The translations under genes were made by a program, and so were the position numbers. DNA of 64,000 nt from NCBI RefSeq assembly GCF_016097555.1, contig NC_054707.1, positions 42,691,843-42,755,842 on the forward strand. Direction: 5' to 3'. The stretch comes from Gigantopelta aegis (taxonomy: Eukaryota > Mollusca > Gastropoda > Neomphalida > Peltospiridae). The notes beneath the pieces are model-generated. The model had not been told where the DNA came from and did no database searches. It worked only from the letters and a program-made list of their open reading frames with translations. This document shows positions 30,178 to 55,646 of this stretch, in pieces (within the stretch, counting starts at the first letter, position 1; each line of letters starts with the position of its first letter).

Positions 30178-30212
30178 CCTTTTTACAGGATAAACCTTCG
30201 GCCAAATAAGTA

Positions 30213-30760
30213 ACTTCGCCAAGACATTACAACTGAAATGTTTTTCAAAGAAAATTTACTGCAGCATTCAGGACAAGCAGCTCTTCCCTGTGGTAAACTA
30301 TGCTTGGCAGATGGAATAAGCTTCAGTTGTTTCCCAGCTGCAAGGTCAGAAAGTGTGGCTATGTGGAGATAGCGATGCAACACTCCTGGTTTGTGCCAAA
30401 TATTGTAACTATGCTATGATGGACATACATTCTGGTATGGTGGTGGCATACAAAACTGTTCAGGTGACCGAGATTGGCAGTTAAACCAACATAGAGAAAT
30501 TGGGCTTCTCCTGGTGTTTGGATGAGGTGAAGGGTTGGTTAGAAATAAAAGTTTTAGCTACTGACCAACACATGCAGATTGCAAAAGTTATCAAGGTCAA
30601 GATAACCATCCAACGCCAGTACGACATGTGGCACTTTGCAAAGTCATTTGGTAAAAAGCTAGGCCAGGTAACCAAGAGGAAGGAATGCAATGCACTGGAA
30701 TAATATAAGGATGAGATCTATCACAAACCTTGTGTGGTGGTCTACGAGAACCTAATGATA
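30213..30760 (+). pseudogene. Kolobok-like transposase remnant
   Basis: Conserved blocks appear in order: VWLCGDSDATLLVCAKYCNY with AMMDIHSGMVVAYKTVQVTE (about 30355-30475), then GFSWCLDEVKGW, IKVLATDQHMQIAKVI and QYDMWHFAKSFGKKLGQVTK (30500-30703). These are the GDG/D..H..I/FDxWH..K.. blocks of the TTAA-specific, often THAP-bearing Kolobok-type transposases. The N-terminal THAP part and the C-terminus are missing and the frame is broken (for example TAA at 30481), so it is dead. Family call is from memory of the blocks. Confidence 0.7.
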
Positions 30761-34120: not shown

Positions 34121-34971
34121 TGTGAGAATCCGGGATTACGATATTGCCAGTAAATTATTTTCTATAAATTATTAAGCTATAATTCAAGTTCGTTTTGTTT
34201 TAGCGCCAACGTGCATCGTAGTCTATATTTGTTTACATTGAACAGCGCAATTCTATGCGCCGGGTCAATAAAACAAGGCTTTGTTTATCGTATAACATTT
34301 ATACACTTAATCATTAGTGTTTATATTATCAGTAGTCACAGATAACTCACCTTGTCAAGTGTTATTAAGTTGGTAAACTGGCATTTTTATACAGCCGCAA
34401 AAGTAAAAAGATCGAAGCCATGCTTTTGTACGAGCCTCGTTCTGGATTTTTGAGTTACTTCCGGGTTTTTGTCATTGCTATTTTTGACGTCTGTTATAGG
34501 AGAAGCCATGTGTTTAGGGAAGTGACGTCACGTATCAGCATGCGCGCGCATCTGGTAGGCAGAAGTCTATCATAATGGCCATTAGTAACAAAGCGAACTA
34601 GCGTAGCGTGAATAGCAAAGAATGGCCAACACGTGCTTAAATTACCGCTTGTAGCACGGGAACGCTATTCTACATAGCTACATGTACTCTTTCCACCCAT
34701 ACAATTTGACGATTGACCGAGTTCAAAACTATAGCAAACTTCCTTTTTTTTCTTTTTTCTTTTCACCTGAATAAATATTTTTAGTCCATGTATTTTTAAA
34801 GCGTCTGGTCCATATTTCAAGTAAAGCATTACAAACGAGCGCGCGCACACACAAATAAAAATAATAAAATAAAACGAGTAGGCCTATATTTTTTATTTAA
34901 AACTGTTTAAAAGAAATAATTGGCCTACACTTTGTTAAAGGAAATTATTTCTTTTAACAATTTTAAATAAC

Positions 34972-34974
<3 letters not shown>

Positions 34975-35042
<68 letters not shown>

Positions 35043-35145
35043 TATATGTATATATATATATATATATATGCATATATGTATATATACATATACATATATA
35101 TGTACATATAGATACACATACATACATATATATATATATATATGA
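34975..35145. repeat. (TA)n / (CATA)n microsatellite
   Basis: Long TA tract degrading into ATATGCATATATG and TACATATAC words. Confidence 0.95.
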
Positions 35146-35649
35146 ACATTTGTTACAAATGAACAACCAGTAGACAATATATAGACAGTAGTTATATATA
35201 TATATAACACATCAGACTTGTCTACTGGTTCATTTGTAAGGCTTTTTCATCAACAATAAATTTAAGCAAGTATCTTATTAGAAAACTTTACAAAAAACTT
35301 TAAAACTATTAATTTTATCAAGTCCTTTTTTATTCCTTAAACTTGCTGATATCGGATACATATTAACACATTGTATTAAAATGGAGGAACCTAAATTTAG
35401 TTTCCATACATGTTCCATGACCACACATACATTGCTCCCCTCTAGCTACAGCATCCCTTTTTAAATATTAGTACAGAACTTAGCCTTTTAAAACCGGATA
35501 CATCTCAAAGTTACTTGGTCCCTCACCTTTGTGGTTCCATCTTCAGAACATTTTGTAGCATTATTTTTTTTATATATATATACATAAAAATTGCCATTAA
35601 TATTTTAATCACCTAATCCCATGCAGGCCAGGACATAGTTTAATATGCA

Positions 35650-35935
35650 GTCGATCTAGGATTGATTCCTGTTGGTGGTCCTATAGGGCTATTTCTCATT
35701 CCAGCCAGTGCTCTACAACTGGTGTAACAAAATGCTACACTATTTATTATCCTGTCTGTGGGGCTGATGCATATAAAAGATCCCTTATTGTTAATCGGAA
35801 AGAGTAATCCATTATGTGACAGCAGCAGGTTTCCTCCCTAATATTATCTGTGTGATCCCTAAACATGTCCGACTCTATATATCCGTAATTAAAATGACTT
35901 GAGTGCATTGTTAAATAAAAGATTCCTTCCTTTCA
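35650..35935 (+). mobile_element. SINE, plus orientation
   Basis: TAGGATTGATTCCTGTTGGT head region, TATCCTGTCTGTGGGGCTGA, AAAAGATCCCTTATTGTTAA, and tail GTGCATTGTTAAATAAAAGA. Confidence 0.82.
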
Positions 35936-36236
35936 AATCTAAAACAGTGTCAGTTACCTTTGACAAGAGGCCACAGTTTCAAAGGCTATCACTTTCAACC
36001 TGATTAATAAACCAGTTAAAACAACAAATTACTGTAAATGGTAACAATACAATGTTTTAATGTAAGACACACATTAACACAATGCAAATATCATTTGATC
36101 ATTGGTTTATAATGATAATAGAAAAAGAAAATAATAAATATGTGTTGTCTACTGTTTCTCGATATAATTTTATTGATTTTGTAAAGTCTGTTTTTATTAG
36201 AAAATCGAGATCCTGGTAAAAAAAGATTAAATCCAA

Positions 36237-36449
36237 GTGTTATCAATGTCATCATCACATACTGAATAGCCCCAATCATATTGCATATGGTAGTTTGGAA
36301 AGTCAGTGTGTTATCAATGTCATCATCACATACTGAATAGCCCCAATAATATTGCATATGGTAGTTTGGAAAGTCAGTGTGTTATCAATGTCATCATCAC
36401 ATACTGAATAGCCCCAATAATATTGCACATGGTAGTTTGGAAAGTCAGT
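36237..36449. repeat. 71-bp tandem repeat, three copies
   Basis: Three head-to-tail units starting GTGTTATCAATGTCATCATC at 36237, 36308 and 36379, with only one or two differences, so the amplification is recent. Confidence 0.95.
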
Positions 36450-37935
36450 GAAAAAGTTCTGGTATCCCTCTTATGCACAGAAACATGAGATACTGTAGAA
36501 AAGAATCGCTGAATCTGATACCAGTGTTCTCCTTAGCATCCCTTAATTCACCCTAAAACTTAAACGCCCTTAATTCATCGTGAAAGGCCCATTTTTCATC
36601 CAAGAGTTGCCGGTTCTCTTTTTGTCCATAAACAGGGATCACTGATACCTAGGAAAAAAATAAGAAAATTGGTAAATTTCTATGATATATAAGTATGAAA
36701 GTTTTATATTGTGTATATTGAATATTATTGAAATATTTGAATACACATAAATGTATTTGTGAAGACATATTGACATCTGTCACTGATGACAATAATACTT
36801 ATAAATACAATCAGCTCCCCTTTTCTTTCTTTATTTCCTGCAAACAAATTCAGATAACTTATATAATAAATGCATGTAACATAATTTATGTTTTTAATAA
36901 AATATAATGGCTATCACCAACTTGTGGATCAATATCCAGTTTTATTATTAGTATTTATTTATTTTTAATCCCAAACAAATGATTTCATACACCTGATATC
37001 CCACCCTGAAATGTTTATACCTTTTATTTTATTATTAAAAAATCAACTTACACATTACAAATACACCTGTGGATCACTTCTTCAATAAAAAAAGTAAAAC
37101 ATTATAATTAACATATAATATAATTAATAAATGGAAATATTTCACAACCATTTTCATATGAAACAATATATATATGCTTGATTGCACACACACACACACA
37201 CACACGTACACACACACAGCTCCCTGTTATTTAATTAAAAATATAAATACTCCAGCCACCTACATATTTTATGGCATAATACAATATAAAATATATTCAG
37301 ATTTTTGTTTTACCCACTATAATGGGTATAACAAAAAGTTACATAAAACGTTGTTTGTCGATTGACTGGGTAGGCCTACTGTTCACAGGGTAACTTTGTT
37401 TCCATGTCAGTTTGGTGGGGGCTTTTATTATTATTATTTTTTATTTTATTATCTTTTCAATTTTCATTTCAATAAATACTGACGTGTATTAGTATTACGA
37501 ATGAATAACATACAACAAACCTTGTATAAAATGACGATCTCCGTTGTGGGATGGGCAAAGTTGATTGTTGTCAGCTTTAACTGTTCAACGTTTCGCTTCC
37601 ACTGTATTTGATGAAACTAATTTCATAATCCTTACTACAGTGACTTGTGCATCTAACAACAACGTATGAAATTACCATGACAAAATACCATTCATCAAAA
37701 CTAGTCTACACTGATTTAATTGACGGAAAAACATTCGATTGTTCATTACTACTAATGCCAGTATTGTCAACTGGTTTCTTGCCTACCAGCGCTCACGCGG
37801 TACCACGTGATCAAAACATGTGACGTCACCGTGGCTTCTCCTATACTGTGTAAATATTAGTAATTTACGTTACGTATGGTTTGATAGTGAATTTAGTCAA
37901 TTTCAGTCGATACTTTACAACAGTTAACGGCCAAG

Positions 37936-38145
37936 ATGCCTAAAACATGTTGTGCGGTTGGCTGCATAAACCATAACTTGATGTTAAAAAAAATATCGTT
38001 TTACAAATTTCGAAAAGAGACCAGACGCCGCTTCTGGGTAGAGGTACTAAAACGTGACAAACCTGATGCAACGCCATGGCTTCCCACACAGAATGCGTCT
38101 ACGTTGTGTTTAATGTTGTTGCTTGTCGACAATAACCGACGTTAA
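37936..38145 (+). pseudogene. THAP-domain start exon, incomplete
   Basis: Begins MPKTCCAVGCINHN, then KKISFYKFRKETRRRFWVEV. This matches the N-terminal half of the C2CH THAP DNA-binding finger (Met-Pro, C-x4-C, SFYxFP-like block, W). The terminal C-x2-H and AVPTIF parts are absent and the frame ends at 38145, so no finger can fold. It is the first exon of a THAP gene or of a Kolobok/P-type transposase. Confidence 0.75.
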
Positions 38146-39823: not shown

Positions 39824-40597
39824 GGTAAACGGACAAAACCCCACCCGGAAAAAAAACCCACTGGATAAAACCCCACTGGAAAAAACCCCACTCGGACATA
39901 ACCCCACAGAGAAAAAAACCCACTCGGACATAACCCCACTCATATATCTCAATATATAACAATCTATCTACCTACACACATACAAGTTAGTTATGATAAC
40001 ATAATTACCTCCAGGTCTGAAGTCACACCGCCTTTACAAGTAAATGCAGCTCTGCTGGAACACTCCCATCGAATATTCTTCCTGGCATACCTCTTAGTAT
40101 ACAAGTAGCCTTCGTGAATTAGCTTGAGACCACCCTTGTTGTTCTTGATAACTTCCATAGTTGTATTTACAGTTCTCAGGAAATGAATACTGATGCAGAA
40201 TTTATGACATACCCAATCAACAATGGGAAGCCCTAAATCCATGATTTCCTTGATCTCTTAGAAGAAAACCTGGCCTCCTTAATCTCTTGATCACAAAGTT
40301 CAGATAATCCTTTGTCATGGAGATCAATGCAATCAGTGCAACACTTGACTGATCAAAATACAAATGTAAACTTTATTCTTTATCATAATCTATTTTGTGA
40401 ATTTTATTTATAATTTTATTCTTCCAAAACAGAAATTTCAACTTTATTTCATATTTTTCAGTTTTATGTGTAAAATGGTCACAGTGGGGTTTTGTCCATT
40501 TTTCTCATTTATTGATGGGGTTATGTCCGAGTGGGTTTTTTTCCAGTGGGGTTATGTCTGGGTGGGTTTTTTTCCAGTGGGGTTTTATCCTGGATTC
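39824..40597 (-). mobile_element. Short Mutator-like element (MULE) with 9-bp duplication
   Basis: ACATTGAAC is directly repeated at 39815-39823 and 40598-40606; repeat copy 1 shows the single, empty site. Both ends are built of a short word repeated several times in inverted orientation (AAACCCCACTGG and CGGACATAACCCCAC on the left, complements on the right). A FLYWCH-like frame lies inside. 774 bases, so it is non-autonomous. Confidence 0.88.
39991..40242 (-). CDS. FLYWCH-type zinc-finger fragment of a MULE
   Basis: Minus-strand frame of 83 codons. Residues 33-80 read NNKGGLKLIHEGYLYTKRYA then RKNIRWECSSRAAFTCKGGV, the F/L-hydrophobic, Y, W-x-C, C pattern of FLYWCH fingers that precede MULE transposase domains. 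The final H-x-H is not seen (SDLEVIMLS follows), and no transposase follows. The natural start is probably an internal Met near residue 29. Confidence 0.65.
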   Translation of the reverse strand: MDLGLPIVDWVCHKFCISIHFLRTVNTTMEVIKNNKGGLKLIHEGYLYTKRYARKNIRWECSSRAAFTCKGGVTSDLEVIMLS

Positions 40598-40907
40598 ACA
40601 TTGAACAGCGCAATTCTATGCGCCGGGTCAATAAAACAAGGCTTTGTTTATCGTATAACATTTATACACTTAATCATTAGTGTTTATATTATCAGTAGTC
40701 ACAGATAACTCACCTTGTCAAGTGTTATTAAGTTGGTAAACTGGCATTTTTATACAGCCGCAAATGTAAAAAGATCGAAGCCATGCTTTTGTACGAGCCT
40801 CGTTCTGGATTTTTGAGAGTTACTTCCGGGTTTTTGTCATTGCTATTTTTGACGTCTGTTATACTGTGTAAATATTAGTAATTTCAGATATTACTAATGT
40901 AACTTAT

Positions 40908-41969
40908 ATCTAATTCAGAACGGATATGGAACTTATATTTATTTGTGTATATATGCTTAATTGTATTTATTTCGTTCCCATTATAGCATAGTAATTAAGG
41001 TCAAAAGGCCTGTAGGGCCTAATGAAGTTAGCCAATAGTAAATGACGTCATTGGTTTTCTAACCCGCACTGCACGATTTACAAATTCTGCAATGCAGGAT
41101 TGTACCCCGCACTGCTGGATTTTACCCCGTTTTGCAGAATGCATACTCGCTCCGCGGAATGCATAATTCTGCAGTGCTGGATATTAACCAGTATTGCTGG
41201 ATTTTGGCGGGGATATAAATACGAATCCCGCAATGATTTGTCAGTTTTGGTCAATCGTTCGCCCCGATAGGTGGGTTGGGATTATTAACAGAATATTAAA
41301 TTTATACGGGTTTTACATATGTGTATGTTATTGGGATAACTTGTAGAGACCAAACTCACAACCTTAATGATTAGATAATTAATAAAGATTAAAGGGTATT
41401 ATTTTCGGTATTTATTATTCATAGAATTTAGGGAGATAGACAGCACCCATTACACAGAAAAGGTGTATGCCCCGGGTGTTGTGGTTTTTATGTGGCAAAG
41501 TTTACTGCATATTATATAGAGAGGGATTGAGTTAGAGAGATGCCTATGTAGTGGAAGTAGGTCTGTGTACCCAGACAAAGTATTTAAAGTGTATATTCTT
41601 GCTGATATTGATGTTCTTGGTCCAAAATTAAGTTTGTGTATATCATAACGTTGGAGACTTAGCATATTAGGAATAATTATTATTGAGCAACTTACCTGTC
41701 TCAGGTGAATAAGACTCAGTCTTTTAAAGTAATTTAAGAATTGTGGTATATTTCACAGCCTGAAAGTAACTTAGTCATATTTATTCAATTATTTATGTGC
41801 ATTTTATTACTAAATGAATCAGTGAACATACAGTTCAACTGCGAATGTAATTTGAGGTTATTGTTAAATAAATATTGTTGAATTTTAATCTTGTTGGTGA
41901 TCTTTTGCCTTCATAGTTAGTGGTTATGGCCATTTACAAGGACACCCTCTAATCCAGGGTCGTCACAGT
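40908..41969 (+). mobile_element. LTR-like sequence, possible solo LTR (fossil)
   Basis: Starts TGTAAC and ends GTCACA, with a GGATATAAATAC TATA box near 41211, an AATAAA about 170 bases later, and upstream repeated GCTGGAT and GCAGAATGCAT words. These are the parts expected of a long terminal repeat. No internal genes or second LTR are seen in the window, and no clear target duplication, so the call is tentative. Confidence 0.35.
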
Positions 41970-42256
41970 TGTGCACCTTAAAGATGGACATAACACTTGA
42001 GCGGTCTTCACACATCTTAAGCCCATAGAGAGTCAACATAACCTAGCCAGAACCACCCAGATGCTTTCTCTTCAGTTCGGACATAGTACCACTAAACAAA
42101 AAAAAACCCAGATTTTAAATAATATGCCCAAACATGGTCCACGGGACTAGATTATTTGCAAATGTTCATTTATCTGAGAATGAGCGTGTAATGAGAGGAT
42201 ATTTATGTCCAAATGTCCGTCTAGCTCTCTTACAGACAAGAGTACTCAGGCAATCT

Positions 42257-43660
42257 TCGAACGGTGAATACAGATTTCGTTATGTACAGCCGGAACATGA
42301 AAAAAGCAATTTTTTCTAAAAAAATATTTTTCCTACAATTATTTTTGTAACATATATAAATACTGAGAGGTATATTTGTGCCAAATATAAACAATGTACA
42401 CCTCGGCATTAAAGGAGAGGACAATTAAGGCATTTGGCCTGGTATGCATATTCAACGATATACAATGCACATTATTGCTTAATATCAACACGTATAATCG
42501 TATAGTTAATTAATAAAATGGTTAAATATGACGGCTATTATATATAACGGGCGCAGCCATTTTGTACCATCTCAGTTAGTACGCCCTCTGGCGAGCTGGT
42601 GGTTACGTAATACTTAACGCGTAACGTCAGGAATGAGCCTTAGAACTAGAGAAACAATCTACCTGGTTTTTGCGGGATGATAAATAGTCATACATTGCAA
42701 TGTTCTGTAATAATACACATCCCAGTAAGCCAGCAATAAGTATATCCAGCACTATATATACTCTTTTTCAATACAAAATAAAATACCATTGTCAAAGTGG
42801 CTACACAAGTCGAAACAATTAACAATGTTTTGCCCATGCATTAACCTACATACTGAAATGATACACGGAGTGTTTTCTTAGTTAATTGGTTCACGATTCC
42901 TGTGATTCCTGATTGGCAGGTGTGTATTTGATTGGTAACCAGACGAGCCAATTAATTGGTCCATGATTCCTATGATTCCTGATTGGCAGGTGTGTATTTG
43001 ATTGGTAACCAGACGAGCCAATTGTAATGGACATGGTTTATTACTGTAAATAGTTCTGTAAAACTATTGATTAAAACCACAGAACTGACCAATTACGTAG
43101 TCCCAAAGAAAAGAAAATTATCACTTGGGTATCGTGGGTTATCGTTTTTGCTCCAACGTAGCATATCAATAGGCCTAATAATGTACATTTTTCCTTTGGA
43201 TTATTTAACAGAGAAAAATACTATAACCCCATTTTGTTCCGTTAATGCAACTTGAAATATATTTAGTTAAATAGTTTATTATATTATTACATCATTTATG
43301 CTATTTTACAAGTCAGGTTGATCAAAGAGAAGCGCCTTGTCGAAAATTACTGCTTTTGTTTACACTGTACATACAGGAGATGGTCAGGAGTTGACGTCAC
43401 TTCGCCCCAAGCTATCCCACCGGACGTCACAAATTTTGTGACAAAAACAAAACGGCTGCCCCCAGTTAGCAGGAATAATCATGTTTTTTTATTAACTCTA
43501 AAATTACGCGTTTTTCATTTGCTAAAGTATCAGTATGTGTTGGTGGTCCGGGTATGCATCTTTCCAACACATAAGGCTCTTGTTTGAGCTGACCCTACCT
43601 TTATTGCTTTAACATTCGGGCTCCGTTTTTGTCTTCACCGAAGACTTCGGACAAGGAAAT
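42257..43660 (+). repeat. Repeat Y, split by a TTAA-type element
   Basis: 42257-42412 (GGTGAATACAGATTTCGTTA to ACACCTCGGCATTAA) matches 54990-55150 in the same direction and 53955-54150 in the opposite direction. After the inserted element it appears to resume as CATTCGGGCTCCGTTTTTGT. Confidence 0.65.
42413..43600. mobile_element. TTAA-type non-autonomous element C
   Basis: Left TTAA then AGGAGAGGACAATTAAGG; right end CTGACCCTACCT followed by TTAT, a near-TTAA. Inside are two tandem copies of a 73-base unit with TGATTCCTGATTGGCAGGTG (42889-43022), and 43020-43370 matches 54590-54990 in element B. Two GACGTCAC words lie near the right end. No coding content. Confidence 0.6.
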
Positions 43661-43969: not shown

Positions 43970-45301
43970 CCTGCAGACAAGACTAGAAACTTCTACAAGT
44001 TAGAAGTGGACACTTATGACAAAATGCTAACAGAAAACATTACAACGAAGTACAAACATGCAGACGACCAAACAATCGAAGATATCAACACAGAGTTCGA
44101 GTACGTCAGCAATGCCCTAGGAATACGTGACAGAATAGACAAGATGGCAGAGACCCGAGCATTCATACCTTGAAAGATCATAAGGACAATTTTGCCACTA
44201 ATCCAAGTTGCAGACTCATCAATCCAGCAAAAAGCGAAATCGGTAGGATCAGCCAAAATTATGTTAGACCGAATAAACAGTGAAACACGACTCAAGACGC
44301 AAATGAACCAATGGAGAAACACTTCCGCTGTACTTGAATGGTTCTCAGCTCTGCATGATAAAAAAAGAACTATTTCCCTCGTATTCACATTGTGGACTTC
44401 TACCCTTCCATAACACCTGAACTACTCGACAAGGCATTGAAATGGGCGAAGAAATATACAGTCATCCCAGATATAGAATACGCATTGCATGCAAGAAAAT
44501 CACTACTTTTTGACAACAAAGAACAGCCATGGGTGAAAAATTACACTCCCAATGCCGACGTCACCATGGGCGGATATGATGGAGCGGAAGTGTGCGAACT
44601 AGTAGGACTCCTCATCCTACACACAATTCAAACAAATACCTCCAACATGAACGTCGGACTGTACAGAGATGACGGTCTAGCAGTTCTACGCAGAAGTTCA
44701 GGAAGCCAAGCAGACAGAATGAGGAAAATGCTCATCAAAATATTCAAAGATCTTGGCCTAAAGATCACCATCCAGACCAACCTGAAAATAGTCAACTATC
44801 TGGACACCACCCTGAACCTTGAAACTGACTCCCACAAACCCTACAGGAAACCCAACAACGAACCCGTTTACATCAACGTCAGCTCAAACCACCCACCCGC
44901 AATCACGAAGCAAATACCAAAATCAATCGGCAAACGAATTTCCCTTCTGTCTTCCATTAAGACTACTTCGCGGAAGCTGCACTAGGGTACAACAAAGCGC
45001 CAAGTGGCTACACAGTAAACATCCAATACGACCCGCCTAAACATAGAGAACAACCAGACACAAAGAAAAGGAAAAGACCCAGAAAAATCACATGGTTCAA
45101 ACCCCCCATTCAGCAAGAATGTGAAGACAAACGTCGGTAGCGTGTTCATCAAATTGATATCCAAGCATTTCCCAGTAATCACAAGTACCACACATTGTTC
45201 AACAGAAACAACCTGAAAATCAGCTACAGCTGCATGAAAAACTTCGGAGCAATAATCAAAAGCCACAACACGAAAATCACCCAGAGCTCAACCGATCCCG
45301 C

Positions 45302-45337
<36 letters not shown>

Positions 45338-45935
45338 TGTAACTGCAGACAGAAGAACGAATGCCCCCTGAACGGCAACTGCCAAACTAGCTCCCTCGTA
45401 TACAAACGTGGCATCTGGTAAGACTGTCAGATTTTCCTGGAGGTACATGGAGAGGTTTAACAACCACACTAAATCTTTCAAATATGAACGCTATGAAAAA
45501 GAGACAGAACTGTCAAAATACATCTGGGAACTCAAACGAAAAAAACCCGCCTATCACATCAATTGGGAAATGTCAGGAAATCGGACCACGGAAACGCAGC
45601 TCGGGACAATGCAACCTGTGCATCGAGGAGAAGCTCTCAATACTATTTGAAAAAGGAGACAAGCTACTCAACAAAAGGACAGAACTCATATCAAAATGCT
45701 GCCACAGCAACAAGCCGAGAGTCTCACGACTGACGTGCCATGACGTCAGGAGCGCACCGCCGCGTACACACAGCGTGACGTCACCTTAACTGTCACAATT
45801 ATAAACACTCATCTGATGAAGGCGAGGAGCCTGAAACTCCGAGTAATGAGTTATTAGTGAATACTAAAAATTTAGTGTACCTGCTCCACTAACATTGTGT
45901 TGAGCACTTTATGTCCAATAGTGATAACAAATATA
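43970..45935 (+). mobile_element. Penelope-like retroelement, broken, between (TA)n tracts
   Basis: Reverse transcriptase blocks occur in order: AFIP..KDHK with CRLINPAKSE-like sequence, then DFYPSITPELLDKALKWAKK, GGYDGAEVCELVGLLILHTI, the catalytic GLYRDDGLAVLRR block, and KPNNEPVYINVSSNHPP. Downstream, [28 protein letters not shown] and LLNKRTELISKC look like the C-terminal GIY-YIG-type endonuclease region, after a Cys-rich stretch. RT plus such an endonuclease is the Penelope-like layout. The copy is 5'-truncated and broken in several places. It ends CATCTGATGAAGGCGAGGAG-like sequence and lies between (TA)n tracts (43956-43969 and 45936-45979). Confidence 0.75.
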
Positions 45936-46430: not shown

Positions 46431-47223
46431 CCCAATACTTACCCAATACCACTACTAACTATTATATCATCACGCAAGAACTAAACCTGGATATTAATTA
46501 CACGTGTTGTTTGCGGCACCGCAGACTCCAGTACGTTGACTTACCTCCCTTCGTTCACCCTTCTATAATACGAATAATATATAGGTCTACCCAGTACAAT
46601 ATATAATAGGTTTCTCTTTGTAAAACTATGTAAGAAATGAAACAACAAATCTACAAACATATCACATGTGTAATGATCATAATGATATTAACAACAACAA
46701 TCATATTCATATTTGAATATTCACATATTATTTATCGAATGTTTGCTTAAAACGCTTTAATTTCACAAACGCCAAGTCTTTGATGCCATTGACCGCTGTA
46801 TACAAAGATTGGATTGGGATCTGAACCACATTTGTCATGGCGATAATGGTATACACACAGGAATACCCACCGCTTCCAACAGCGGCAGCGTTTAGACAGG
46901 CTTCATTATATAGTCAGGAGGCTGTGACTCAACCTGTTCTTATGATCTAAAAAAAAAATGTTTTATTGACAATCATATTGGGTAGTATTGGGTAAATCGT
47001 CGCACCCCGATGTGGTAAATAGGTAATGCAAGACTCCGCGTCGGAAGACTTTATTACCCACCCACCCCCATGCATCCCCGCAAGAGAAGGTTTAGGAGGA
47101 CATACATAGGCCATCCATATATTAGGCTATTAAAAATAAGTAGGGGATATTCAAATATAGCATTAAATAATGTTTATTATATATTTTAATAGGAATTATT
47201 GCAAAATCACAAGGCGTTATTAA
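46431..47223. other. Non-coding stretch with a weak inverted repeat
   Basis: TACTACCCAATACTTACCC at 46427 and GGGTAGTATTGGGTAAATCG at 46980 are partly inverted and may be the ends of a MITE. Confidence 0.35.
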
Positions 47224-47526
47224 AGGGGTACTGGAGCGTACAGGGCTTCATATAAAATGGATTAATAGCCTTACAAAGTATAAGGGAAAATTATATATAA
47301 ATTAAAAAAATATATATTTATATTTAAAAACGAGCTCAACCGTGTACGAAAGTAAAAAACGGAACTCTTCTTTTTGTAACACTACAACAGTCATGCGTGA
47401 CGTCACAGGTGAAACAGCCATGTGGAAAAAACACGTAATGGCCGCATAATGGAAGCTCTTATCATCGATTAAGTTAATTGTTATTACATCTTTGTTCGCG
47501 AGAAATCGCGTTTCTATGAATGGAAA

Positions 47527-47745
47527 ATGGTCCTTTGTGCAGCTGTCAACTGTAGTAATGACTCAAGAAGGGTCAAAGGCATTGGGTATTACTCGATACA
47601 GGCGAGAGAGAAAACGTACCAAAGTATATGGGTACATAATCTTCGGCGAAAGAACTATGTTGTCACAAAACACTCTGTTCTGTTCAATAAAAACAAAACA
47701 ATAAATGAATGTTGTCTTGTTCATATATTTATTATACCAAATTGA
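47527..47745 (+). pseudogene. THAP-domain start exon, truncated
   Basis: MVLCAAVNCSND then RVKGIGYYSIQ matches the start of a THAP finger (C-x4-C, then a GxxYYxI block in place of SFYxFP). The similarity fades after about 30 codons and the C-x2-H is absent. In the frame one base away sequence like RERKRTKVYGYII continues. It cannot make a working finger. Confidence 0.65.
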
Positions 47746-47824
47746 ACATCAAAGTGTGCACTTATGACAAATAGTTGCGTAGTAACGTGTGACAACTTCA
47801 CCAACATAAAAATGCTACACTGAG

Positions 47825-48490
47825 AAAATCCTGGCGATCTCGCCACAGCCTGAAAAAGTGAAATAATAAGAAATGTAAACTTAAAAAATGTTACATTACA
47901 TGATGAAACAAACCATAAATGTGTACTTTACGTGTATTTATTATAATAAACTGTAAACTGTAAACAAGAAAAAACTAAATCGACACGGGGCGAGATCGCC
48001 AGGCTCCGTTGGAAAATCCTGGCGATCTCGCCCCGGCTTGCAAGTGAAATCGTCAGAAATGTAAACTACCAATGTATTACATTTTACAACAAGAAAATCA
48101 AAACATGACTACTGCACATGTATTTACTTAATGAAGTAAACATAAAACAGCTTGTAACTTGAATATTGTTGAGTTATAATGTACTGGCGACTTCGCTAAA
48201 CAGACATGCAACACGGAAGTAAATATGGCGATCTCGCCACAGCGTGTCCCAACACAAAACTAGTAGTATAAGTGGTATAACCCTGTAGTTTTGGCACAAA
48301 AACATGCTGATAATGACAGTAGATATATACTATAATATATGTTGTAATATATGTCTTCTTGCAAGTCTAATATGTATGATAACTTCGCCTAACGATGAAA
48401 ATAAGTCCTGGCGAAGTCGCCCCGGGCGAGTTCGCCAGGGCGAGATCGACACGGGGCGAGATCGCCAGGCTCTGGTGTTACAAGGTCAAT
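47825..48490. repeat. About 190-bp imperfect tandem array with GGCGATCTCGCC palindromes
   Basis: CTGGCGATCTCGCC or close forms occur at 47831, 48019, 48226 and 48408 (spacing 188, 207, 182), several followed by AGAAATGTAAAC. Inverted forms GGCGAGATCGCCAGG occur at about 47987 and 48456. At least four degenerate units. Confidence 0.75.
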
Positions 48491-48827
48491 ATAGATGTTT
48501 CACAATAAATTAGTATATAAAAATGTATGTAAAGCACATATTTAGTCTTTAAGTAATAAAAGATTACATAAATCGACCACATTTTAATAATTTTCAAGGA
48601 AATGTACCAAAATTTGAATTTAAAACAAAAATGGGGCTAATTCAGTAATTGCTGTTTGGTTTGACCTAAGAAGAAAGGTAAAAGCGTTTTAGAAATAATT
48701 TTTTTTTTTTTACTATTTTTGTGTGCAAATTTACAAACCAATCGGTTCAGAAATAAATAACTTGTAGTAAATTGTATAGTATGAAAAAGGGCGTTCCCTG
48801 TGGTACGGACCATAGTAAGCTACATAC

Positions 48828-49186
48828 CTATTTGGTACTGCTTCTGTGTAGTCATCGCGTCGTATGTCGGCTCTGGCTACGAGGGCTGTCCTGAGCACTT
48901 CTGGATACAAACATATAATCCGGAAATCATAATGTTCTAGAATGCACTGCAAGTTGGTGGTTTGCATTTTGTCGCCGATTTGGTCTACTTCTAAACAACA
49001 GATACTTTCTTTTACCGTGTCCATTGGTCTGCAGTTGCCACACAAACACCAATCTCGGTTTCCCAATCGCGCAATATTTTCGACATTTTCTTCCAATTCA
49101 TCGCCTGAAGATAATCCTATGTCGAAGTCCGACTCACTATCATGTTCGGAACGTTCGGGCTCAAACATAAACGGTTGGTAAGCCAT
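48828..49186 (-). CDS. P2X7-C-terminal-like domain start exon
   Basis: ATG at 49186; the frame stays open to 48731 but a perfect donor (ATAG|gtatgt) at 48828/48827 probably ends the exon. Residues 1-35 are acidic (SEHDSESDFDIG, DELEENVE). Residues 45-95 read DWCLCGNCRPMDTVKESICC, later LQCILEHYDFRIICLYPEVL: the W-C-x-C-x2-C...CC cysteine cluster and CI..H..F..[VI]CL block of the zinc-binding intracellular ballast domain of vertebrate P2X7, also found as stand-alone proteins in invertebrates. The following exon (AYRQF..W block) was not found between here and 47.7 kb. No channel domain is present. The protein's role is unknown. Confidence 0.75.
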
Positions 49187-49456
49187 TGATCAAAGCGCTA
49201 ATGTAAACAAATCTATCAAAAAGCACATGGTTTCACATATTGTTTACTGGCTGGCTGTTCACGTGCTACGTCACAGCCAATGCACGCGGCTTTTCGCGTA
49301 GTTATTTTATCCATGCGCGTAAAATAGAAACCGTGTTAATATTGTCAATTAATCCTAAACCCGTTAACATATTAAACATTTTATTGCATCATTCTTCATT
49401 TTAGGCTCCATATTTGTTTAATTTGGCATTAGAGCCAGCCTACACCTTTCCTTTAA

Positions 49457-50226
49457 ATAATGCATTAGCGTAAAGTGTTCATGTCTGGGTAGTTTTACAT
49501 GGTCAGACAAAACACACATTGTTGCCAAGGGTACAGTGGGTGAATTTGACATTTTTGAATGAATTAATGTTTAGCGACACGGTCCAGCAGACAAAACACA
49601 TCGGCTATTGTGTGTCAATGTAAAATTCTAAAATTACTGACACAAATAGTATAGACATAATCAATGAAATTTACATTTCTGAAAGACAACAAATTAAATA
49701 CTGAAAAGAAAACCCCCACCCAAAAATAGTCAAGAAAGTAACGAGAAAGACAAAAATAAACGCTATGGTCGCCCCAATATTACTAAGAAATTATATTAAG
49801 ATGAGTCTAGCTGGGACAAAATATTGGACTCGAGAATTCAATGTTCAAACTCGACCCGGACCCGAGCCTTACACTAGATGATAATGAGACTAAGGGATCA
49901 AGCCAAATAGCATTCAGGGCCGTAGCAAGCATTTGCCCCCCCCCCCCCCCCCGAAAAAAATCGGAAAGCATTATAGAAAATTAAAGAAAAGGAGTTTTAG
50001 ACTATTAACTACTCAGTTGCCCCCCCCCCCCCCCCCAACAAAAATTCCTAGCTTATACGGCCCTGGCATTATGTACCTTAATACCACCGCTAAACATGGA
50101 TGCCTAATCATGCCGTTGTATTGCATTCCACACATTCGAATTTTGTTTTCCATCCATGTCTTATAGCCCTCTCCCACTGGCGGCAAGCATATGGCACCCG
50201 AACTCTTGCTAGACTCGGCCCGTGCC
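49457..50226. other. Non-coding stretch with a decayed SINE tail
   Basis: Decayed tail element at 49556-49622 (ATGTTTAGCGACACGG, ATCGGCTATTGTGTGTCAAT). Poly-C tracts at 49938-49953 and 50021-50036. Confidence 0.5.
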
Positions 50227-50489
50227 CGAGTAGGGGAGACCGGGTCTGGTTGTCACACTTTTTATGTCGTTACATTTCTACAATTTATAAAATCTTATTA
50301 TCAACTGATTTTCTTGTAAAGTTTAAGTCGTTTATATCAGCCATATAGTGTAAAGGTAAATTTCGCCCAGCTTCATTTAAATATAGGATTCTGGCAATTG
50401 AAAATATTAAAATTATTGAGACAACCTGCCCCGTTACGGTGTTGGTTGTCACAGGTCCTGAGGTTGGTTGTCACTATATGTTTAATGTA

Positions 50490-51285
50490 CTGTAGATCCT
50501 GAAATTAATGCGATCATAATATCAATGCAAAAACTGCGAGCTCGTGTTATTCGCATTAATAATATGACGCATTTATTTCTTTGTTTTGTCTATGTGTCCC
50601 ACGTTATTAAAACAAAACAAACAAAGATTAAAATTCTAACATATAAGACAACTGGAAATAAATTAATTGTAGACAAGTCTGACTAGTTGTTGACTAGTCC
50701 AGCAAGCTATGTGTCACACTCTTTTAAAACAAAGATTAAAATGCTAATACATTTATAAAACAACTGCAGCACAATTCATTGTAGACGAGACATACTAATC
50801 GTACAATAATCTAACGAGATGCCAGCCACGCTTGATGATTGCAGGGTCTTTGGCTATCCTATCAAAAGCCGACACGATACATCGCGTGTGAATGGGTTTT
50901 AGTACGTTAATCCTGAGGTCGACCGTTTCTGTGATTTAACTGTTCAAATTCACTGCAACTTAGTTGGCTGAATTGTTCTTTTGTTATGACTTTGAAATAT
51001 GTCTACATCAATACCCGTTACGTAAATGAACGCTGCAAAATATGGAGTTGATCTCACCAAAACACTAAGGACTAAACAGGTTAACTGATGTGTACACAGA
51101 TATGTTAGTAAGTTGATCTCATTGAAGACAACTGTAACTTGGATTGAACAAAAAACTACACGGACGTGTGTTGCTAGTAAAGTAATATTTCAAATGAAGG
51201 CCACTCGCATTAATTTCATGTCGCTTTTAGTCTGCCCACCGTCACTCGCATTAATTTAGGGACGCGTTCATTTCAAGATCTACAG
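50490..51285. mobile_element. Nested TA-flanked MITE (CTGTAGATC ends)
   Basis: CTGTAGATCCTGAAATTAAT at the left and TTTCAAGATCTACAG at the right are inverted, with TA outside both ends. Subterminal TTAATGCGA / CGCATTAA words mirror each other. Confidence 0.8.
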
Positions 51286-51724
51286 TATTAAAATACAGTA
51301 AAACACAATAAGTTGAAGTTCTTGTGATTGGATATCACAACTCAATGTTGTCAAATGTAAGACTTTTATTAATTAAAAAAAATAAAAAATATTTTCAACA
51401 ATTTTTTTATTTAATATGCCATACTTTAAACAATAACGATATACTTGAATTTTCAAAAGTATATGTATGTATGTATTTATAAATGTATGAATATCTATAT
51501 ATTGTATACATTTGACGAGCACATGGGATAAAAATCTGTTTTGGACTCAGATTGTCTCTCATGCCGTTGCCTGGACTCGAACATATGGCACCTAATCGCT
51601 CACATTTCCTGACCACCACGATTACCGGTTGGTCACCGAGACGTTATAAATAGAATATTAACCGAGGATATACAAGAAGCCTACAGACGTGTATATAAAA
51701 TTATTTTTGGCCTCATATGTATTG

Positions 51725-51787
51725 ATGTATGTATGTATGTATGTATGTATGTATGTATGTATGTATGTATGTATGTATGTATGTATA
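51725..51787. repeat. (GTAT)n microsatellite
   Basis: About fifteen GTAT repeats; a second shorter GTAT/GCAT tract lies at 51999-52075. Confidence 0.95.
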
Positions 51788-51799
51788 TACACTTTTAAA

Positions 51800-51998
51800 C
51801 TTTGATTTGTTTAGCGACACCACTAGAGCACATTGATTTATCAATAATCGGCTATTGGATGTCAAACATTTGGTAATTCTGACTTAGTCTTAGAGAGGAA
51901 ACCCGCTACATGTATCCATTAGTAGCAAGGGATCTTTCATATGCACCATCCCATAGACAGGATAGTACATACCACAGCAATTGATATACCATCCTTGG
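51800..51998 (-). mobile_element. SINE fragment inside the 50.2-52.5 kb element
   Basis: TTTGTTTAGCGACACCACTA tail, TTGGATGTCAAACATTTGGT, AGTAGCAAGGGATCTTTCAT; no head. It sits between two GTAT microsatellites. Confidence 0.82.
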
Positions 51999-52100
51999 TA
52001 TGTATGTATGTATGTATGACTGTATGCATGTACGCATGCATGTACGTATGTATTATATGCATGCAGGTATGTACATTGCAATTCACCATGCTTTTGCGTT

Positions 52101-52152
52101 ACCGGTGTTGGTTGTCACGTGTTATTGTATGTGACAACCAACCCCCGACACC
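52101..52152. repeat. Hairpin of GGTTGTCAC motifs
   Basis: GGTGTTGGTTGTCAC, a 12-base loop, then GTGACAACCAAC and GACACC: an inverted repeat of about 20 bases per arm with a small bulge. Confidence 0.8.
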
Positions 52153-52564
52153 GTGTGACAACCTGCCCCCTCACGACCCATTCACAATAATTACTGTCCG
52201 TCAGACCAATGTACTAGTCTATTGCTTATAAGTTCACTTCATAAGAAGCAGACTTTCATATCTGTTTAACACTGTACTAATCTGAAACAAAATGTACAAA
52301 TGGTAAAAACTAGAATATAATATTAATATTAAAAAAATACATACAGAGGGAATTTATTTTTTCAAGTTTTGAAATCTCAAAAAAATGCCGTGAATTCTTT
52401 GTAATTTAAATATGACGGAATACAAACATTTCAAGCCACATACCTGTGTTAGTCCAGTACGCTTACGCCGTTTAATGGAAGAGATATGGCCACTGTGACT
52501 ACCAACCCGTGTGACAACCAACCCCGGTCTCCCCTACTCGTGGAGATCCTAGTTCTGGCAATCA

Positions 52565-52690
52565 TAACTGGGGTACCAGACGTTTCGCCCCGAAGCCAGT
52601 TCACCCCCAAATCGAATGTCAGTTCGCCCCCGCGTGCTTAACCAGTTCGCCCCCACAAAGGTACCAGTTCGCCCCCATAAAGATAATCCC
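52565..52690. repeat. CAGTTCGCCCCC tandem motifs
   Basis: CAGTTCGCCCCC or a close form occurs at about 52601, 52620, 52645 and 52669, spaced 19-25 bases. The style resembles the sub-repeated ends of the MULE at 39824, so this may be one end of another MULE; its partner end was not found. Confidence 0.6.
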
Positions 52691-52982
52691 TCAATTAGAA
52701 TAATGCTCACCAGAAGAGGCTATATCGAATTGGCATTGCGGTTCAAAGCCCTCTTATGTGTTAGCCGAAGATGCGTAATCAACATCGAAGTTATGTAGCT
52801 GATTAACCATTGTTTTAAAATCAAATAAGGTGGAGGTTTATTTCGTTTTATTTGTGATAGTCTGTAGATGCTGATAATTCTTTTTACTCAAATTATTATT
52901 TTATTCCTAAAACAGATCCTATCTCTGGCAGGAATGGATGTTTTAATAAATGTTGATGATGTGGTTTATGTGTGTAAAAGTG

Positions 52983-52987
<5 letters not shown>

Positions 52988-53056
<69 letters not shown>
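52988..53056. repeat. (AT)n microsatellite
   Basis: Uninterrupted AT tract. Confidence 0.97.
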
Positions 53057-53059
<3 letters not shown>

Positions 53060-53487
53060 GCCTCACGCGAGGTCAAATTCATAGAGCGAAGTCACTTCTC
53101 TCTCAAACTTTAGAGAGGGCGAAGTTTCTAACAACAGGGCGACTTGAATTTTTAATCCCAAAAATATGTTATCTTAATACAGGTGCAACTTTTACAATCT
53201 GTACTTTATTTTATTTTATTTTATTTTATTTTCCGTCTATACTTCTAATTGATGGATATGTGCTCTATTACCTTTCCACATGTCGCCTTCTTTAGAAATA
53301 ATGAAATGTAATTGAAAAGCACTAATTTAACCGTTTAGAATTCATTCTCTTACAAGTTTGTCTTCGTCTTCTCATTTCATTTAATACCTACTCCATGCAG
53401 AGTACTGTCCTAGTAGATTAATCTACCACGGTCCAGCTTAGATTACTCAGAGGCAATTAAATGCGTTCCACGGTCACATCCACTTAA
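53057..53487. other. Non-coding stretch with possible hAT remnant
   Basis: CAGGCCTCACGCGAGGTC at 53057 and GGGCGACTTG at 53128 resemble words of the hAT-like MITE at 8333-9120. Confidence 0.4.
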
Positions 53488-53754
53488 AGGAAACATGACA
53501 CGAGACCATATTATAGCTCATTTTAAAAGAAAAATGATATAAAAATAATATACAAATAACTTTATAACAATAAAATACGTGTAGTTAACTTAAAATGAAG
53601 AAATTACGCTCATCAGTATCAAAGTACGATTTATGCATATTTCTTCGTGAGCGTTCGGAAAAAAAGGGAAGTGACGTCAGAGCCGCTGTACTCTTCCATT
53701 GTTGTTAACTGTTTATATATGGAGTAAGGGGCTTACGATCTTTTCGGTCCAACA

Positions 53755-54114
53755 GTGCCGTACTGCGCGGCCTTTGGGTGTAAAAATAAACAGTTTAAAC
53801 GATCGGGATTGTCTTTTTATGGTTTTCCAAAGGATTGTATCCGAAGAAAGACGCGTGTATTTTATCGCAAAAGAAAAGATTGGACACCAACACCGCATAG
53901 TACTTTGGTGTCGGCCTATTTACAGCCCGGAGCCCGAACGTTACCCGGAGACAAAAACAGTACTCGGTTGCGAATGCCGAGGTGTACATTGTACATATTT
54001 GGCACAAAGATACACCTCAGCATGATGTATTTATATATGTTAAAACAAAAATGTAGAATTTTTTATTTATTTATTTTTTTGGAAAAAAACAGATTTTTCA
54101 TGTTAGGACTGTAG
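53755..54114 (+). pseudogene. THAP-domain start exon, degraded
   Basis: The frame reads MPYCAAFGCKNKQFKRSGLS then FYGFPKD, the C-x4-C and SFYxFP block of THAP fingers, and later KRKDWTPTPHS, the conserved W-x-P turn. The expected RICSxHF is LVSAYL here, so the third Cys and the His are lost. The rest of the frame is non-coding repeat Y. Confidence 0.78.
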
Positions 54115-55178
54115 GCCTACATAACAAAATCTGTATTCACCGTCCGAAGAAGGAAACGTCAATAAGTAATTAAATATGGCATATACAAACATGGGATTTG
54201 GCATGAGGATACATCTCAGTACGATGTATTTAAATATGTTTTTAAAAAACGTGTAGAAAACAATAATAATTTTAAATAATGTTTTTAATCTTCGGGCGGA
54301 ATACGTCACAAAAACGTTCCTCATCGCCCGAAGCCCCAAAGCAACACGAAGTTCATACAAAATAAACCACTACTGTCGGTGTCGAAATAACTATTATGTT
54401 TCATCCACGGGCTGACTTGAGAATCGGAGTTTTGTTTTAGTTAATTGGTCCTTTCTTTCCGTGGCCTGCACATATGATTCCTGATTGGCAGGTGTATATT
54501 GCAGGGTATCGACCAGGTAAGTGATTATCACGGTCTAGACATGCGTACAAAATACGTGCCAGTTTTTTTTAAGATCACAGGGTATTGTGGCGTAACCTGT
54601 CGCGACTATAGTACAATGTTAATGGACATTATCAGCCGCCCTGCTTCATTACTGTAAATAATGCTGTAAAACCCTTGATTAAGTAGACTTTCCCCATCTA
54701 AAATGACAAAACTGACCAATTACGTAGTACCAAAGAAAAGAAAATGATCACTTGGGTATCGTGAGTGGTCGTTTTTACTCTAACGCACCCTACCAATAGG
54801 CCTAATAATATGCTACTTTTTTTATGAGAGAAAAATACTATAACCCCATTTCGTTCTATTGATGCAAATAGAAATATATTTAGTTTAAAAGTTGATTATA
54901 CTCTCAAGTCATTTATGTTGTTTTACAAGCCAGGTTAATGAAAGTGAAGCGCCTTGTCGTAAATTAGAGCGTTTGTTTACACTGTGCATACAGATTTTAT
55001 TATGTACAGCCCGAACATAAAAAATGCGATATTTTCTAAAAAAAAAACCCAAAAAATGTTTGTCCTACATTTATATTTTTTACATATTTAAATACATCAT
55101 ATCGAGGTGTATCTTTATGCTAAATATGAACAGTATACACCTCGGCATTAGCATCAGAGTTTTGGTTTTGTCTCCGGG

Positions 55179-55361
55179 TTACTTTCGGGCTCCGGGCTGT
55201 AAATTGGTCGACCGGTCTGGTCTGGCACCATCAGTTTCTCCACCCTCCGACTCGCTATCCGTTTTGTCTTCAGTATCACTGTTGTAAGTAAATGTGTGTC
55301 TTTCTTCATTTACTAACAGCTCATATTGATACGGCAAAACGTTTTGCGAACGAACACTCAT
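55179..55361 (-). pseudogene. P2X7-like protein N-terminus, truncated
   Basis: Minus-strand frame MSVRSQNVLPYQYELLVNEE, then an acidic stretch TEDKTDSESEGGETD. In layout it resembles the N-terminus of the P2X7-like exon of element A (YQPFMFEPE, then SESDFDIG), but it runs into repeat Y before any cysteine cluster. The assignment rests on position and composition. Confidence 0.4.
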
Positions 55362-55646
55362 TGTTTTGGTAAGCTGTGCAAGTCTTAGATTCTTTACGAG
55401 TGGTACGGACTAATGCTTTTAAGTGTAAGGCTTCAGATCAAGCGACGCGTCTCTGACGTCACGGACCTCGTGATTGCCCTGCTCATTAAAGATCGGCAAT
55501 TTCCGCTAAGAGCTCGTATCGGGGGTTCTTTTATGGAGATATTTTAAGTAATTTATTTTTTATAATTTTTTTTTTAGGTGATTCAATTTATAATTAATTG
55601 TACATGGTTGGTGCCAAATATGGTTTACGTGACATGTTTCCTTTAA

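Follow-up and report, generated by a model that had tools for sequence, protein, structure and literature searches.

The window analysed in this study, a 64,000-nucleotide stretch of the Gigantopelta aegis genome (contig NC_054707.1, positions 42,691,843 to 42,755,842), contains two short insertions, here called elements A and B, both of which have TTAA on either side, the first half of a THAP domain at the left end and an inward-facing open reading frame (ORF) at the right end. In a preliminary description of this DNA, they were read as remnants of a transposon with two convergent genes, a THAP-type Kolobok transposase and a P2X7-like protein, and this pairing was thought to be undescribed. 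The two-gene transposon is real, but it has already been published, and elements A and B are further members. According to the accessible part of Kojima and Bao (2022, PMC9587614), Koloboks of the Kol0 group encode a transposase and KolX, a protein with the P2X7 ballast fold, and the Kolobok signature is C/DxxH between the second D and the E. The features of element A are listed below, where CRE stands for cyclic AMP response element.

47220..49456, plus strand: element A, non-autonomous Kolobok derivative, very likely of the Kol0 type, 2.2 kb including both flanking TTAA
47398..47405, no strand: CRE-like site TGACGTCA, preceding the THAP ATG by 129 bp
47527..47682, plus strand: first half of the THAP domain (transposase start exon), ATG at 47527
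47645..48472, no strand: middle without a counterpart in the 7.9-kb relative, containing GGCGATCTCGCC repeats
48827..49186, minus strand: KolX (P2X7 ballast-like) exon 1, ATG at 49186, facing the THAP exon
49266..49273, minus strand: half-CRE site TGACGTAG, preceding the KolX ATG by about 80 bp, with no full site here

Element A begins with TTAA-AGG and ends with CCT-TTAA, and the termini that follow the TTAA, AGGGG and AGGAA, give it the 5'-RR ... YY-3' form. Its THAP ORF matched only positions 1-46 of the 87 in the PF05485 profile and, with 19.6 bits, was below the cut-off of 23.9. KolX exon 1, which is closed by a GTATGT splice donor, matched PF20478 (P2RX7_C, profile 66-135) with 29.6 bits, above the cut-off of 23.5. 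Among the solved structures, the top matches of this exon were P2X7 chains, with an E-value of only 0.18, while the joined KolX exons of another locus (L012) matched the C-terminal ballast part of the solved P2X7 chains with an E-value of 6.5e-7. The element itself has neither a transposase core nor KolX exon 2. A search of the genome (1.15 Gb) with the first 541 bp of A matched 41 places, 23 of which, including the window, showed 98-100% identity along practically the whole query. All nine other near-complete copies (L043-L045 and L047-L052) had TTAA at both ends and differing flanks; L046, in which the match ends at A position 2023, was excluded from this set.

The preliminary description had suggested searching the genome for long TTAA-flanked copies of both elements. 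For A, two copies of 7.9 and 9.0 kb with convergent genes were found, whereas for B none was found among the candidates scored. The first of them (L033:333-8187, C14:34.70 Mb, 7855 bp) has TTAA on both sides and shares A 1-425 at 97.6% and A 1254-2237 at 96.1% identity. The first half of its THAP domain is 97% identical to residues 1-39 of A, the second half matched PF05485 (profile 57-87) with 18.0 bits, which is below the cut-off, and on the same strand, behind a TTTCAG acceptor, there is an uninterrupted transposase-like ORF of 590 codons. The residues D250 and D316, DMWH at 336, a YHRCAH or His-Cys cluster at about 408 and E463, all assigned by eye, correspond to the Kolobok DDD/E core with C/DxxH and a zinc finger before the E. 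On the opposite strand, KolX exon 1 and its donor are followed, 2.4 kb further, by exon 2 behind a pyrimidine-rich acceptor; joined, with X at the single stop, the two exons matched P2RX7_C with 73.4 bits (E 3e-20, profile 68-192). The second copy (L034) is more diverged, with TTAA on both sides and ends that are 80-86% identical to those of A, and it has the same layout, in which parts of THAP and a piece of the transposase are combined with KolX exons. Both copies are damaged.

The convergent arrangement was also found elsewhere in the genome. Here, places are merged hits, and the genome lists score only the best candidates. PF20478 gave at least 24 hits at at least 22 places and the 590-codon protein at least 69 hits at at least 37 places. 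A transposase match lay within 10 kb of nine of the 22 P2RX7_C places listed, in a convergent orientation in all nine, and the number of such pairs expected by chance, calculated from the same counts, is about 0.014. Using tblastn, two more KolX places with convergent transposase pieces were found (L010, L023). The reverse comparison speaks against the two-gene reading: 28 of the 37 transposase places had no P2RX7_C match within 10 kb among the matches listed. Five of these 28 were re-examined and are the basis for this part of the count; KolX exon matches were found in three of them (L035, L036 and L058), all convergent, and there was no KolX match in L057 and L059, which also weighs against it. 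The total is 14 convergent pairs, and no pair was seen in any other arrangement. The counts exclude what the L028 query matched on or near its low-complexity ERERER run, as well as a second, weak KolX-like match in L036 (9001-8825, E 2e-4). Single-gene relatives may exist as well, and several of the other 23 transposase places, which are only about 25% identical to the 590-codon protein, may represent other Kolobok lineages.

These features leave little doubt that element A is a non-autonomous derivative of a Kolobok whose long relatives have two inward-facing genes, the transposase and KolX; its placement in the Kol0 lineage, judged from the sequence, is very likely. In the long relatives, the transposase with its THAP domain and DDE-type core with DxxH and the KolX protein with its ballast-like zinc domain are read inward from opposite ends. 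In element A, the two ends are preserved together with the putative promoter regions and the first exons, whereas the core of the transposase and the second exon of KolX are absent, and the element would presumably have multiplied by means of a transposase made elsewhere, which would cut it and paste it into TTAA.

Several properties of the 7.9-kb relative weigh against this explanation. The first half of its THAP domain alone gave no Pfam match, no Pfam model matches the 590-codon ORF, KolX exon 1 alone reached 20.5 bits, below the cut-off of 23.5, exon 2 (46.4 bits) has one in-frame TGA stop, and A 426-1253, a middle of 828 bp, is unmatched there. Since the ORF has no Pfam match, its identification as a Kolobok transposase is based on the signature residues assigned by eye, the THAP domain, the TTAA and KolX. 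Because of the unmatched 828 bp, A is not a plain deletion of this relative; most of this middle, apart from its first part, is also missing from the 9.0-kb copy. The proposed internal deletion of a convergent two-gene transposon thus stands for A as regards the 7.9-kb relative and the convergent pairs but does not account for the 828 bp, so A would have arisen either through a deletion combined with filler DNA or from another, sister parent element.

The preliminary description had also considered the capture of first exons from the host, which would have come from a THAP gene and a P2X7-like gene. THAP genes do occur as host genes, and element A retains first exons only. P2X7-ballast genes occur as host genes as well, as is stated in the accessible part of PMC7016195. 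The same two genes, however, are present in the 7.9-kb and 9.0-kb relatives, which have the same ends and a transposase-like ORF or a piece of one, and convergent gene pairs are found at 14 places. Because of the long relatives, host capture is refuted for element A, and we give it practically no credence in general. An origin from piggyBac or P elements rather than from Kolobok is hardly credible either. P elements also carry a THAP domain, but they produce an 8-bp target duplication, and a 4-bp TTAA target was found here instead. The combination of a THAP domain with a DxxH core also argues against these two groups, and 5'-AGG (RR) ends are given as a distinction from piggyBac in the accessible sections of PMC9587614.

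Three published systems are closest to these elements, as far as their accessible text goes. Like the relatives of A, the Kol0 elements (Kolobok-1_XT type) have two genes, a DDD/E transposase and KolX with similarity to the ballast domain, and share the TTAA target, the 5'-RR/YY-3' ends and DxxH between the second D and the E (PMC9587614). Unlike the Kol0 elements of that study, A and B are short, non-autonomous derivatives. Neither the orientation of KolX nor bursts of copies bearing first exons were found in the accessible part of PMC9587614, in which no search was aimed at orientation. In Xenopus, Kolobok transposases with THAP, H2CH and DDE features, TTAA duplications and amplified miniature inverted-repeat transposable elements (MITEs) were described (PMC6004289). 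The XKol elements and T2-MITEs resemble A and B in the THAP domain and TTAA, the AG- or AGG-type ends and the amplification of putative non-autonomous Koloboks; the accessible text of that paper does not contain the word KolX and does not mention retained first exons of T2-MITEs. The zinc-cysteine domain (ZCD), or ballast domain, was found across animals, including oyster and limpet, and the domain shared by these invertebrate proteins and the P2X7 C-terminus is the same as that of KolX; the accessible part of PMC7016195 treats the ballast-domain proteins as genes, and 'transpos' does not occur in it. In our literature search, KolX was named in one paper, P2X7 and Kolobok appeared together in the 2022 paper and in a review, and no paper was found that joins Kolobok, THAP and molluscs.

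Element B has the same plan, and its features are the following.

53484..55646, plus strand: element B, non-autonomous and similar to Kolobok, present in many copies, 2.16 kb with both TTAA counted
53672..53679, no strand: left CRE-like site TGACGTCA
53755..53907, plus strand: first half of a THAP domain, GTG where ATG is expected
53910..55212, no strand: inverted-repeat middle, arms at 53910-54143 and 54981-55212
55203..55361, minus strand: right-hand inward ORF, a candidate KolX N-terminus by position only
55454..55461, no strand: right CRE-like site TGACGTCA

Its start, TTAA-AGG, and its end, CCT-TTAA, confirm the TTAA flanks that had been described for both elements. The terminal inverted repeat is identical in 27 of the 30 aligned columns, and AGGAAAC follows the TTAA at both ends, which again gives the 5'-RR ... 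YY-3' form. As had been noted for both elements, there is no transposase core. The copy number of B is at least 150. The left end gave 675 candidates in the genome, and all of the best 40, which were scored, were about 100% identical; the THAP peptide, used as an altered query, gave 900 candidates and the right-hand peptide 692, and in each case all of the best 150 that were scored matched. TTAA was present at both ends in the four other copies that were checked, as it is in the window. The THAP ORF reached 21.9 bits with PF05485, below the cut-off of 23.9. The described THAP start exons are therefore half-domain ORFs below the cut-off in both elements, and that of B begins with GTG rather than ATG, which is the case in all seven sequences read (the window and six other copies).

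The long inverted-repeat middle of B is part of the amplified unit or entered the progenitor of B. Both arms were found in all five other copies compared, one of which is without about 230 bp between them, and a later nested insertion with its own target duplication was rejected because of these five copies. The middle of B is partly related to 42254-43376, with common pieces in a changed order.

The P2X7-like right-hand exon that had been described for both elements was supported in A by the PF20478 match; in B, the Pfam search of the right-hand ORF gave no match, and in the comparison with the KolX exon of A its score was reached by 876 of 1000 shuffles, i.e., there was no similarity beyond chance. 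The ORF nevertheless agrees with that exon in side, orientation and distance to the element end (about 285 bp), and it may correspond to KolX. Three copies of B with a longer right-hand frame were inspected (L070, L071 and L072), and in two of them it continues into the middle of B. In the remaining one, L070 (C4:22441800-22442700), the right end of B is joined to other sequence, and the open frame extends over 162 amino acids.

Most likely, B is a derivative like A that came from a different Kolobok family, with a putative KolX exon at its right end. Two results count against a common kind: the longer right-hand frame of L070 has no ballast cysteines, and the searches with the left end, the THAP peptide and the right-hand peptide, which listed copies of B, yielded no long relative. 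It is thus possible, although we consider it the less probable reading, that B is unrelated to the KolX-bearing Koloboks and is a THAP-carrying TTAA element whose right-hand ORF is a different gene or has arisen by chance. The missing Pfam match, the similarity to the A exon that does not exceed that of the shuffles and the L070 frame would all fit such an origin, whereas the shared side, orientation, end distance of about 285 bp and upstream CRE site do not, and neither does a PYQYEL stretch in the ORF that resembles, by eye only, the KolX N-termini of A and L023. Element A and element B belong to different families because their outer 350 bp align only at TTAAAGG, with no convincing DNA alignment past it. 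At the protein level, the THAP pieces of A, of B and of a third half-THAP exon in the window (at 37936) resemble one another, with each of the three pairings scoring better than 1000 of 1000 shuffles.

CRE-like sites had been described at both ends of both elements, which is correct for both ends of B and for the left end of A; at the right end of A there is only the half-site TGACGTAG. The motif TGACGTCA occurs 11 times in the window, compared with 0.52 expected (100 first-order Markov simulations, maximum 3), and the left site of the diverged 9.0-kb relative reads TGATGTCA. These sites precede the start codons by about 80-130 bp, where core promoters would be expected, and they may have promoter activity. 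Two further TGACGTCA sites (34523 and 37821) are inside another transposon-like insertion, so the motif is not specific for Kolobok here. The sites at 41043, 43392 and 45741 are separated by exactly 2349 bp, and there is no self-BLAST match linking them; this spacing is probably a coincidence.

The families of A and B look like recent bursts, and the retained exons look like passengers that were kept with the ends rather than working genes, because the THAP exon is wholly frameshifted in seven of ten copies of A and the ATG is missing from all seven sequences of B. Among the ten A copies, which include the window, the THAP exon was in frame in two and shifted and then restored in one, and KolX exon 1 was open in all ten. 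The changes were few, which limits their weight: in KolX exon 1, none was synonymous and six altered the amino acid (one shared by two copies), and in the THAP exon, one was synonymous and none altered the amino acid. In Drosophila, KP elements regulate transposition, and by analogy a similar effect of the truncated THAP and KolX peptides could be what maintains the derivatives. The start exons that were kept at both ends in both families and the open KolX exon 1 would agree with such a role. The frameshifts and the lost ATG contradict it, as do the substitutions in the exons, small as their numbers are, and the fact that only half of the THAP domain is left, and we consider peptide regulation very improbable. 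Another improbable idea is that overlapping sense and antisense RNA from each insertion would silence the parent transposase and KolX via double-stranded RNA during multiplication, which is suggested because inward CRE-bearing promoter regions survive at both ends and the RNA of B would span a long inverted repeat.

The window also contains a fragment of a related Kolobok and another half-THAP exon.

30179..30746, plus strand: part of the transposase core from a related Kolobok, interrupted by stops, found using tblastn with the L033 protein
37936..38109, plus strand: third half-THAP start exon, PF05485 26.0 bits, above the cut-off

In DNA, the fragment at 30179-30746 shares 85% identity with the transposase gene in the 7.9-kb relative, and in protein it is 77.6% identical to residues 187-360 of that transposase. 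A Pfam screen of 33.9-56.0 kb covered open pieces of at least 38 amino acids (76 of 91 in 33.9-41.4 kb, 113 of 186 in 41.4-56.0 kb and 28 of 40 in 52.7-56.0 kb) and left out low-complexity pieces, most of 44.0-46.6 kb (six pieces were scanned separately) and pieces outside the elements. The only informative matches were to THAP and FLYWCH, and no transposase core came out of this screen. A protein-like stretch of 66 codons at 42119-42316 that resembled KolX by eye was rejected as a KolX piece, as Pfam gave nothing and its score against the A exon was reached by 459 of 1000 shuffles. In a search of viral_contigs with the KolX exon of A, five pattern matches were obtained and none was confirmed.

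A 3.3-kb insertion at 34499-37841 has the ends GGAGAAGCCA, TGACGTCA just inside both of them and TATA on both sides, and its empty site is visible in a near-identical duplicate at about 40595-40884. Another insertion, at 39824-40597, has a FLYWCH match (Pfam E 7e-8) between repeat-rich inverted ends, with an ORF, by reading, at 39994-40257 on the minus strand; it is flanked by the 9-bp repeat ACATTGAAC, and its duplicate at 34232 is empty. By the size of the duplication, we take it to be similar to a Mutator-like element (MULE). On the plus strand, a 207-codon ORF at 44362-44982, which resembles a reverse transcriptase by eye (YRDD), had no Pfam match and is followed by the TGACGTCA sites at 45741 and 45776.

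With the pair seen at 14 places, support is given to the published view of the P2X7 ballast domain as part of a transposon gene that works beside a Kolobok transposase; details added here are the face-to-face arrangement of the two genes, the CRE-like sites and the bursts of copies that carry first exons. This also fits the published idea that such an element donated the tail of P2X7. The long copies are material for testing the putative function of KolX, and the near-identical derivatives suggest recent transposition in Gigantopelta aegis.

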